From the NCBI RefSeq assembly GCF_021389935.1, contig NZ_CP089979.1, forward strand, positions 124,001-188,000: DNA of 64,000 bases, read 5' to 3'. The notes under the pieces were generated by a model. It saw nothing but the letters and a program-made list of their open reading frames with translations. It was not told where the DNA came from and did no database searches. Numbering within the stretch: position 1 is the stretch's first letter; every line of letters begins with the position of its first letter. A program made the position numbers and the translations under genes. The stretch is from Fulvivirga ligni. Its GTDB lineage: Bacteria; Bacteroidota; Bacteroidia; Cytophagales; Cyclobacteriaceae. Shown here in pieces: positions 45,441 through 51,300 of this stretch.

Positions 45441-47723
45441 ATGGCTATAAAAATAAGAAAAGAAGACGCTCTCAATTACCATATGCAAAACCAGCCTGGT
45501 AAAATTGAGGTGGTTCCTACCAAATCATTAAGCTCGCAGCTAGACTTAGCACTTGCTTATTCTCCAGGTGTGGCAGAACCGTGTAAAGAGATAGAAAAGA
45601 ATAAAGACGATTCTTATAAATACACAGCTAAAGGAAATCTTGTTGGTGTAATTTCCAATGGAACAGCCGTTTTAGGTCTGGGAAATATTGGAGCCGACGC
45701 CTCTAAACCAGTAATGGAAGGTAAAGGGGTACTTTTCAAAAAGTTTGCAGGTATAGATGTGTTCGACATTGAAATAAATGAGGAAGACCCTGACAAGTTC
45801 ATTGAGATTGTAAAATCACTGGAGCCAACTTTTGGTGGCATCAACCTTGAAGATATAAAAGCACCAGAAAGCTTTAAAATAGAGCAAGAGCTGAGAGATA
45901 AGATGAATATCCCTGTGATGCACGATGATCAGCACGGAACGGCCATCATCTCTGCCTCTGCCCTACTGAACGCTTTGGAAATCATTGATAAAAAAATCGA
46001 TGAAATTAAAATAGTGGTTAATGGAGCAGGTGCTGCTGCCATTGCCTGTGCAAAGCTTTACATTGCATTAGGCGCAAGCAAAAAGAACATAATCATGTGT
46101 GACAGCAAGGGTGTGCTCAACAAAAAGCGCACTAACCTTGATGAAACAAAAGCTGAATTTGCTTCGGACACCGAGCTTGACACCTTGCAAGAAGCTATCA
46201 AGGGTGCTGATCTATTCCTTGGTTTATCTGTAGGAGATATCCTTCAACCAGAAGATATCAAAGCGATGGCCAAAGATCCGATTGTATTTGCTTTAGCCAA
46301 TCCAAACCCAGAGATCAGTTATAATGTGGCTATGGATACCAGAGATGATATTATCATGGCTACAGGTAGATCTGATCATCCTAACCAGGTAAATAATGTG
46401 CTTGGATTCCCATATATTTTTAGAGGTGCCTTAGATGTAAGAGCCACTTCCATCAATGAAGAAATGAAGTTAGCAGCTGTGCATGCCATTGCTGACCTGG
46501 CGAAGCAGGCAGTACCTGAACTGGTAAACAAAGCTTATGGAGATAATAAGATTCAATTTGGCAAGGAATATCTTATTCCTAAGCCACTTGATCCACGCTT
46601 GATTACTACTATCTCTCCTGCTGTAGCCAAAGCCGCTATGGATTCAGGTGTAGCCAGAATTTCTATTAATGACTGGGACAAATATCATGTAGAGTTACAG
46701 CAAAGGATAGGGATTGACGAAAAGCTGATGTCACGAGTGATCAGCAGAGCCAAGAAAGATCCACAGCGTGTTGTTTTCGCTGAAGCGCATGATCTTAAAA
46801 TTCTTAAGGCTGCTCAAGTTCTTCAAGATGAGAAAATTGCTTTTCCTATTCTTTTGGGTAACAGAACTGCCATACAGCAGCTCATTGAAGAACATCAATT
46901 AGATTTACAAGAATGCACTATTATTGATACTGCGGAAGAGAGCGAGAAAGTTGAAAAATATGCGCAAGCATATTATGAGAAGCGCAACAGAAAAGGAGTA
47001 ACTCTTTATGAAGCTAAGAAGCTAATGAGAGAGAGAAACATGTTCGGTTCTATGATGGTAGAAAATGATGAAGCCGATGCTTTGATTTCAGGTCTTACTA
47101 AAGATTACCCTAAAACTATTTTACCCGCTCTTCAAATCATTGGTATGGAGCCGCAGGTAAAAAGAGTGGCGGGTATGTATATCATTGCTAATAAAAAAGG
47201 TACTTTCTTCTTCGCAGATACCACGGTAAATGTAGACCCAACGCCGGAAGAGCTTGTAGACATCATTGGTATGACGGCCCGCGGAGTAAAGTTCTTTGAT
47301 ATAGAACCTCGTATTGCGGTATTGTCATATTCAAACTTCGGTAGCAGTAAGGGTACCATACCTGCAAAAACGAAAAAAGCGGTAGAACTGGCGAAACAAA
47401 AATTCCCCGATCTTATCATAGATGGGGACATTCAGGCCAACGTTGCTGTAAATACTGAAATACAAAAAAGTAATTATCCATTTAGCTCATTAGCTGAAAA
47501 AGGTGCAAACACTTTAATTTTCCCTAACCTGGCCTCTGGTAATATTGCTTATAAACTCCTAATGGAAATTGGAGGAGCAGAAGCTATAGGACCGATCCTA
47601 TTGGGAATGAATAAGCCTGTTCATATTCTACAGCTGGGCAGTTCTATCAGAGAAATAGTAAATATGGCTGCAATAGCTGTGGTAGATGCACAATCATACC
47701 ATAAAAACCACCCTACAACATGA
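45441..47723 (+). CDS. maeB: NADP-dependent malic enzyme with C-terminal phosphotransacetylase-like domain
   Basis: 760 residues. The malic domain and NAD(P)-binding domain fill about 1-425 ([65 protein letters not shown]). A phosphate-acetyl/butyryltransferase-like domain spans about 430-755 ([18 protein letters not shown] ... [30 protein letters not shown]). It decarboxylates malate to pyruvate with NADP. The PTA-like domain in MaeB is thought to be regulatory, binding acetyl-CoA. It overlaps ruvA by 4 bases. Confidence 0.95.
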
Positions 47724-48314
47724 TCACCTATTTAAAAGGGAAATTAGCCTATAAGGACCCTACTTATGTAGTAATAGATGTTAACGGAATTGGGTACCAC
47801 GTGAATATTTCACTTGGTACCTATTCCCATATTAAAAATGAAGAGAGTATTCATTTACATACTTACCTACACGTAAAGGAAGACTCACACACTTTGTATG
47901 GCTTTGCTGATGAAAAGGACAAGAAGATGTTCTTAAACCTAATATCCATTTCCGGAGTAGGTCCAAGCACTGGCTTAATGATCCAATCATCTCTTTCTGC
48001 CTCAGAATTAAAACAAGCTATCTTAAATGAAGAGGTAAAGACCATTCAAGGTGTAAAAGGTATTGGTAACAAAACCGCTCAGAGAATCATATTAGAATTA
48101 AAGGATAAAATGAAAAAAGATGCTTTAATCGAAAACTCTGAAGAATTAAAACCAACACCACACAATACTATCAAATCTGAAGCGTTATCCGCGTTGACAA
48201 CGCTTGGCATTAATAAAACCGCGGCCGAAAAAAAGTATAGACCGTATCCTGAAAAATTCAGGAAATACAATTACATTGGAAGAATTAATCAAGCTTTCAT
48301 TAAAAAACGCCTGA
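47720..48314 (+). CDS. ruvA: Holliday junction helicase subunit RuvA, frameshifted before domain III
   Basis: RuvA binds the four-way junction and seats RuvB. Domain I ([28 protein letters not shown]) and the two helix-hairpin-helix motifs of domain II (ISISGVGPSTG and VKGIGNKTAQRIILELKDKM) are intact. After SEALSALTTLGINKTAAEK the frame meets seven A (48228-48234) and continues as an unrelated tail of about 40 residues to a stop at 48355. In the frame reached by dropping one A, the normal domain III follows (SIDRIL... TLEELIKLSLKNA) and stops at 48314, giving 197 residues, the usual RuvA length, and leaving a normal 18-base gap to sprA. Either a real indel, a slippage site or a sequencing error. 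Confidence 0.9.
48228..48234 (+). other. A7 run at the ruvA frameshift
   Basis: Seven A in GCCGAAAAAAAGTATAG. Six A would restore the conserved RuvA C-terminus. Such runs are prone to replication, polymerase-slippage and sequencing errors. Confidence 0.85.
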
Positions 48315-48332
48315 CCAAACCGACTTATAGTT

Positions 48333-51300
48333 TTGATATTAAGGAGATTTCATAAATCGCTATTCGCTGTATTATGTGCTTTTGTGATTTGGGTAGGAAT
48401 AGACTATTCCGTTAACTCAAAGAATTTAGATTTTAAAACCATTGAGGATTTAGAATATGCTTTATTCCAAGAGCAAGACACCACAAGACAGGATTCTGTT
48501 AAGCAGGATTCCATACAAAATCAGCCATATGCGCCAACCAGAAAACCTACATATCAGCCAAAAGACAGATTTGGTGATCCGTTTAGTAATACAACAAGTC
48601 CTTCTCCTCTCCTTTTAGAAGATCCTGCAAGTTTAAAGCTGGATGTTGAAATAGACACCAGCATGAATTACACCATTTATGAAAAAATTGGTGATATCAA
48701 CTACCGCCCTACTTCTTCGATGACTTTTGAGGAGTTCAAACAATATCAGGAACGTCAGCAACTAAAGCAGTATTGGAAAGGCAGATCTGAAGGTTTAGAT
48801 GGAGAAAGTGCCGTGAGTGGTAGAAATTTAATTCCACCTATCTATGTAAGTCCTATCTTCGATAGAATTTTCGGTGGAACCTATGTAGAAATCATCCCCA
48901 GAGGTTTTGTGACCTTAGATTTTGGAGGTAGATGGCAAAGAATTAATAACCCAAACATTCCAATCCGCCAGCAAAGAAGTGGTGGTTTTGAATTTGATCA
49001 GCAGATCAGCATGAATGTGGTAGGTAAGATCGGTGAAAAACTACAGGTAACGGCCAATTTTGACAACAACAATTCCTTTGACTTTGAAAACAACTTAAAG
49101 GTAGAATACACTGGTTATGAGGAAGATATCCTTCAGAAACTAGAAATAGGTAATGTTAGCCTTCCTCTAAATAATAGCCTGATTACAGGAGCTCAGAACC
49201 TTTTTGGTGTAAAAGCTCAAATGCAGTTTGGTGATTTATATGTTACTACCGTAGCCTCTACTCAAAGAGGTAAATCAGAGTCTATCACTATAGATGGTGG
49301 AACAGGTGCTCAGGGAAGAGAATTTGAGATCCAGGGATCTAACTATGATGAAAACAGACACTTTTTCTTAGGCCATTTCTTCAGAGACAACTATGAAAAG
49401 TGGTTAAATACTATTCCAAACGTAAATTCTGGAGTAAGAGTAACCAGAGTAGAGGTTTACATTGCCCAAAGAAATGGAGATACTCAGACATTAAGAGATG
49501 TAGTGGGACTTATGGATTTAGCTGAGCCCAATTCAGAAAATTTATATAGAGCCTATAATACAACCAATGTTGAGGCTAACACCAACAACGCTAACTCTCT
49601 TTGGAGCGAACTTCAAAACTTAAACCGATCGTCTGACGCCATAGATGGAGAACTTAATAATCTTGGAAATTCACTTTTCGGAACACCTCTAAAAGAAGGC
49701 CTAGATTATGAGAAGATAAATAGTGCAAGGAAACTAGACCCAAGTGAATATACCTTCGATCCTGCTCTAGGGTATATCACCTTAAACAGGAAGCTACAAA
49801 ACGATGAAGCTCTGGCTGTGGCCTATCAATATTATTACAGAAACCAGTCTTATACTGTTGGTGAATTATCTACCGACTACAGTAATCTACCAGAAGATGA
49901 TGCTGTTTACCTTAAACTATTAAGACCTAAAAAAATCAGTATCACAGATCAGTCTGGCAAAGATATACCTACCTGGGATCTGATGATGAAGAACATCTAT
50001 AACCTTACTGGTTCTAATATCGCTGAAGAAGGTTTTGATTTAAGAGTAATCTATAGAGATGATAATACAGGTATTGATAACCCACAATTACAAGAAGGCC
50101 GCACTGCCAGCCAGTTTCCTTTAATTAGAATACTAGGCTTAGATAAACTGAATCAAAACGAGGATCCACAACCCGATGGAAACTTTGACTATGTGGAAGG
50201 TGTAACCATTAACGCAGCCAATGGCTTGATTATCTTCCCTTACCTGCAGCCGTTTGCCGATCCGCTAAGAGAAGAATTTGAAAATGACGATGGAGCCAGA
50301 CAACAGACTCTCATAGACAAATACGTTTATGATGAGCTCTACAATAGCACTAAAAATGACGCTGAGTTAGTTACCACAAAAAATAAATATGTCATCGTAG
50401 GTCGATACCAGGCCGGCTCTTCCACGGAAATTGTTATCCCTGGATTTAACATTGCCGAGGGATCCGTTAAAGTTTTTGCTGGGGGATCGCCACTACAGGA
50501 AGGGGTTGATTATCAGGTAGATTATACTTTTGGAAAGGTTAATATTTTGAATGAAGGTGTATTAAATTCCGGGAAGGAAATCACAATCTCTTACGAAAAA
50601 GCCGATCTTTTCAACTTCCAGTCAAGAACGCTATTAGGAACTCGATTAGATTATAAAGTTGACGATGATATCACAATAGGTGCCACTTTACTGCACCTTA
50701 ACGAGAGGCCATTGATCTCAAGAATCAGCGTAGGTAGCGAGCCTACCAGAAACACTAAATATGGTTTTGACATCAACGTGCAGAAAGAGTCAAGATTCTT
50801 AACCAAAATGTTGGATAAGCTTCCCCTTATTCAAACCAAAGAACCATCAAGTATATCATTTAATGCAGAGTTTGCTCAGTTAATTCCAGGTACATCAAAC
50901 ATCATAGATGGCGAAGGAACATCGTACATTGATGATTTTGAGAACTCAGCAACACCATATTCATTGAGTAACCCTACCAGTTGGAAGCTCGCTTCGACAC
51001 CTAACACCAATAGCCAAAGATTTAATGGTGACCAGTCTGGTTTAGAGAATGGATTCAGAAGAGGTAAGATTGCCTGGTATACAATTGACAATTTATTCTA
51101 CCGAAACGATAGAAGAAAGCCTAGCAACATTACTGACGAGGCTTTGCAAAACAACTACATTAGACAGGTTATTCCTCAGGAAATTTTCCCTAACCTCGAT
51201 CGTAATATCATTAATATTCAGCAGACTTTTGACATTGCCTACTACCCGGCAGAAAGAGGTCAATATAACTTTAACACGGGCGAGACTAACAACGAAGGGA

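Follow-up and report, generated by a model that had tools for sequence, protein, structure and literature searches.

A seventh A that splits ruvA in Fulvivirga ligni is most likely an assembly indel

Runs of A within coding frames have been described both as sites of recoding and as sites of sequencing error. A AAA AAG is the heptamer of dnaX-type programmed -1 frameshifting. Transcripts may also be corrected at long A runs, and in some endosymbionts slippage yields 12-50% corrected transcripts (PMC5009743). In Nanopore assemblies, the Homopolish paper describes the systematic errors left by read-based polishers as mainly frame-shifting homopolymer indels; excess pseudogenes remain after Racon and Medaka on R9.4 data, and one genome treated in this way carried 704 insertions against 324 deletions (PMC8011154, Table 1 for the counts). 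Here we consider the DNA-repair gene ruvA, which encodes the Holliday junction branch migration protein, in a 64,000-nucleotide stretch of the marine bacterium Fulvivirga ligni (the window; positions 124,001 to 188,000 of contig NZ_CP089979.1), where a run of seven A (A7) turns the reading frame away from domain III of RuvA. Comparison with related genomes and with other genes of the same assemblies indicates that the seventh A is most likely an indel of a Nanopore assembly made with Canu and Medaka, and not new biology.

The split ruvA frame and its congeners

As assembled, the ruvA open reading frame (ORF) encodes 211 amino acids (aa). Residues 1-61 match RuvA_N (PF01330, 87.8 bits) and residues 71-129 match HHH_5 (PF14520, 54.1 bits), showing that domain I and the helix-hairpin-helix domain II are present. 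The Pfam search of this ORF gave no match to RuvA_C (PF07499), which is domain III, and a genome-wide profile search for RuvA_C likewise found none anywhere in the F. ligni genome. The frame turns at an A7 run that is flanked by G on both sides, and the neighbouring frame reads, from 48234, SIDRILKNSGNTITLEELIKLSLKNA, followed by TGA at 48312-48314. Taken alone, this neighbouring-frame piece aligns to positions 24-45 of the 47 in the RuvA_C profile with 13.4 bits (E 0.12), a score below the cut-off, as would be expected of half a domain. For comparison, RuvA of G005, which with G006 (F. sediminis, contig NZ_JAESIY010000001.1) is the nearest congener by this protein, carries the entire RuvA_C domain and scores 31.6 bits against a cut-off of 24. 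An earlier note on this DNA had placed an A7 run at 48228-48234, a turn into an unrelated tail of about 40 residues and a continuation of domain III in the next frame to a TGA at 48314; all of this holds in the sequence, with the tail counted at 39 residues. The string GAAAAAAAG occurs once in the window against 2.39 expected, so that the run itself is not rarer than chance. Its unusual aspect is the disruption of a conserved gene, not its occurrence.

The earlier note had proposed comparing ruvA among sister strains, and the comparison is uniform: all 14 Fulvivirga congeners (G001-G014) have six A (A6) between the two G and continue in frame into domain III, with a RuvA of 194-200 aa, and neither A7 nor a split ruvA occurs in any of them (0/14). 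In the frame of the F. ligni tail, every congener meets a stop after 1-18 residues (14/14), leaving no counterpart to the 39-residue tail. A conserved tail or a conserved A7 site was therefore rejected as an explanation, since neither is found in any of the 14, and no congener combines A7 with a conserved tail. More widely, RuvA_C was found in 56 of the 57 relatives searched, and domain III was in frame in all 29 of the 57 that were inspected by eye as sequence. The sole relative without a RuvA_C match (G048:C126:1221-1709) has a genome of 1.6 Mb (150 contigs) and a diverged RuvA. In another relative, the RuvA_C match contains one TAA (G045:C23:146393-146530).

The codons behind the run point in the same direction. 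Over 26 codons, four synonymous changes and one non-synonymous change separate F. ligni from G005, and likewise from G006, and at the non-synonymous site F. ligni has glycine, as do the other 12 congeners. This pattern indicates that the domain III frame behind the run was constrained until very recently, and it bears out the freshness of the event in the earlier note, which took intact downstream codons to mean that the event is recent, an artefact or compensated.

The rest of the pathway is in place. F. ligni has complete, open frames for RuvB (342 aa) and RuvC (189 aa), and in the five congeners checked neither gene contains an internal stop. The F. ligni genome contains a single RuvA match. 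A search of a plasmid collection for a near relative gave a best identity of 45.9%, which was of no use.

Homopolymer-split genes in sister assemblies

F. ligni W9P-11T (CP089979) is one of three strains described in a single paper, for which both Nanopore (LSK109) and Illumina data were generated; Canu 2 was used for assembly and Medaka 1.3.2 for polishing (PMC10113389). The method passages of that paper name no short-read polisher: Pilon is not mentioned in them, and their sole mention of polishing concerns Medaka. G005 and G014 are the two other strains of the same paper.

Other conserved genes were surveyed for splits in stretches of 1.2 Mb from F. ligni, 0.8 Mb from G005 and 0.774 Mb from F. 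sediminis. ORFs of at least 100 aa were compared by tblastn in both directions, and genes were counted at 60% identity and 80% coverage. Splits were retained only where a homopolymer of at least five bases was no more than 12 bases from the junction and neither piece was shorter than 25 residues. This comparison superseded a looser frameshift scan that took ORFs from 60 aa and included shadow ORFs. The filter dropped 3/6 rows with F. ligni as target and G005 as reference and 1/4 with F. sediminis as reference; for G005 as target it dropped 1/16 (reference F. sediminis) and 0/7 (reference F. ligni), and for F. sediminis as target 2/4 (reference G005) and 0/1 (reference F. ligni). One F. ligni block in the target set, G000:C1:2181001-2581000, had no matching reference stretch and contributes little.

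With F. sediminis as reference, three of 340 F. ligni genes are split, namely ruvA, recQ and a prolyl oligopeptidase gene, and the identical three are found with G005 as reference (3/330); ruvA is the only kept split within the window. In each of the three, the junction is at an A run and the shift is +1. The recQ gene (G000:C1 about 253814-256007, outside the window; L060:13814-16007) is divided at an A6 run, giving two ORFs, with the DEAD, Helicase_C, RecQ_Zn_bind and RQC domains in one and HRDC and HTH in the next. The prolyl oligopeptidase gene (G000:C1 about 916703-918839, also outside the window; L115:1703-3839) is likewise split at an A6 run, which separates the N-terminal from the catalytic domain. 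Over its aligned length, ruvA has a net length difference of +1, and recQ and the peptidase gene have one of +4 each; in the latter two, the alignment coordinates show an extra codon in the upstream piece and a one-base shift at the junction.

The same signature is seen in G005, where, against F. sediminis, 14 of 496 genes are split at homopolymers (loci L068-L087 and L130-L149) at 15 places, 14 of them +1. With F. ligni as reference, G005 gives seven rows, of which one mirrors the F. ligni recQ split and six repeat genes already seen in the comparison with F. sediminis. One G005 gene of 268 aa, presumably encoding a short-chain dehydrogenase-like protein, is split twice. Under the same filter, F. 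sediminis has two of 498 genes split with G005 as reference. By its position, we take one of these rows for a G005 error mirrored on the antisense strand; in the second, a base is missing at a run of eight A. The single F. sediminis row obtained with F. ligni as reference (1/342) mirrors the F. ligni recQ split. G005 thus exceeds F. sediminis in splits (P = 0.002 with F. sediminis at 2/498, or 0.0005 at 1/498), and +1 shifts account for 17/18 places across the F. ligni and G005 assemblies (P = 1.4e-4).

An assembly artefact is favoured because surplus bases recur at homopolymers elsewhere among the conserved genes of both the F. ligni and G005 assemblies and because the method passages of PMC10113389 name no short-read polisher. 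The constrained codons behind the run and the intact RuvB and RuvC lend it further support. From these observations we infer that this particular base is false. A surplus A would then have been retained at a homopolymer in the Nanopore assembly of F. ligni W9P-11T, and the living cell would most likely have an ordinary RuvA of about 197 residues. By extrapolation from three splits per 124,551 aligned residues, some tens of such splits would be expected genome-wide.

Several points weigh against this interpretation. Illumina reads were available and could have entered the assembly, although the method passages of PMC10113389 do not describe such a step. In the nanopore assembly profiled in the Kastor paper, deletions and not insertions are linked to homopolymers (PMC12007338), so that a surplus-base signature is not a general rule. 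Finally, the excess in F. ligni alone (3/340 against 2/498 in F. sediminis) is not significant (P = 0.40), and the case for an artefact therefore leans on the sister assembly G005 and on the method section.

The features of the locus are collected in Table 1. The ORF upstream of ruvA, which we take to encode a malic-enzyme-like protein, extends to 47723 and so overlaps the ATG of ruvA. For the ORF downstream, called sprA in the earlier note, the spacing of 18 bases given there stands only for the mechanical TTG start at 48333.

Table 1. Features of the ruvA locus, in window coordinates
Feature	Position	Strand	Basis
ruvA ORF as assembled, 211 aa: domains I and II, then frame-shifted tail	47720..48355	+	ORF list, Pfam
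A7 run at the frame turn; A6 in 14/14 congeners	48228..48234	+	sequence, congener comparison
39-residue tail and stop	48236..48355	+	congener comparison
RuvA domain III, second half, read in the neighbouring frame and closed by TGA	48234..48314	+	sequence, Pfam, congeners
Short hairpin 3' of the A run	48244..48268	+	folding, stem search in Fulvivirga sequences

Mutation or recoding as alternatives

The better of the alternatives, itself unlikely, is that a real one-base expansion arose recently in the strain or its culture, leaving a RuvA without the whole RuvB-binding domain and a defect in branch migration that the cultured cells tolerate. An A6 run is a natural site for an indel, the undecayed neighbouring frame is what a fresh mutation would leave behind, and the non-significant excess of splits in F. 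ligni alone is compatible with such an event. However, two more conserved genes, one of them recQ, carry the same type of shift, so that three fresh mutations would be needed, and the sister assembly G005 from the same paper bears the same signature. RuvB and RuvC are also intact. Because domain III is the part of RuvA that binds RuvB (PMC9477746), a lasting loss of domain III beside an intact RuvB and RuvC would be surprising.

A second alternative, which we regard as very improbable, is that A7 is real and that slippage or +1 frameshifting restores domain III, giving a full RuvA together with a form that lacks the RuvB-binding domain. To rescue domain III, the ribosome would have to shift by +1, or the RNA would have to lose one base or gain two. 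The endosymbiont precedent and the intact domain III in the +1 frame are consistent with this, as is a zero-frame A AAA AAG heptamer at 48229-48235 that is followed by a hairpin (z -1.94; 8/200 shuffles fold as well). This hairpin lies within conserved codons; counted from the G at 48235, its outer stem follows at 8 bases and its core stem at 11. Nonetheless, the 14 congeners with A6 need no rescue and the tail frame is not conserved. The core stem of the hairpin is present in 10/15 Fulvivirga ruvA sequences, nine of which have A6. Runs of at least seven A lie on the sense strand of 75/315 intact F. ligni genes, with G-A7-G in the same phase at two places, which implies that such a run alone does not derail a gene. 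After a -1 shift at the heptamer, the next codons would be GTA and TAG, short of domain III. Finally, loss of one base from the RNA would be the simplest rescue here, yet transcription deletions in homopolymer runs are rare in E. coli (PMC5574713).

Thus, the possibility raised in the earlier note, that two RuvA forms would exist if the event were programmed, has no support, given the A6 of the congeners, the unconserved tail, the 75/315 genes with comparable runs and the stop in the -1 frame. That note had left the choice among a recent event, an artefact and a compensated shift; the artefact is now favoured, a recent event is a possible but lesser candidate, and a compensated or programmed shift is unlikely.

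The remaining candidates were rejected: a further ruvA copy by which the split gene would become dispensable, as none was found in the genome; loss of the entire Ruv pathway, as ruvB and ruvC are intact; and a dnaX-like -1 site with its hairpin, as the -1 frame meets a stop immediately and the core stem occurs mostly in congeners with A6.

Implications and comparison with known systems

If the seventh A is an assembly indel, the main consequence is one of caution. CP089980, and probably CP089979, seem to retain surplus-base homopolymer indels, and where ruvA, recQ or other core genes seem to be lost from these two sequences, this should not be taken as biology unless the reads are inspected. 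Were A7 to prove true after all, a core recombination gene would be expressed via a recoding site. Were two RuvA forms also to exist, branch migration would be tuned in one Fulvivirga species, a prospect to which we give very little credence. A literature search for a homopolymer-frameshifted ruvA returned no title on Fulvivirga among the matches listed.

Among known systems, dnaX-type -1 frameshifting resembles this locus in having a zero-frame heptamer, here at 48229-48235, with a hairpin behind it. The shift here, however, meets a stop two codons on instead of reaching domain III, and with the A6 of the congeners the heptamer is out of phase; we note the resemblance and make no claim of membership. 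The rescue of endosymbiont genes by poly(A) slippage (PMC5009743) is similar in that a conserved frame is broken by an A run and remains preserved downstream of it. It differs in that the runs there are long and the genomes reduced and AT-rich, whereas here the run is A7, in a 6.5 Mb genome, in 1/15 Fulvivirga genomes, and is known from DNA alone. The homopolymer artefacts described for Nanopore assemblies (PMC8011154, PMC12007338) differ in one respect, since surplus bases dominate here (17/18 places) and Kastor ties deletions to homopolymers. In other respects these artefacts are alike: a one-base indel splits a conserved gene while the remaining frame stays intact, and further genes of the same assembly are also split.

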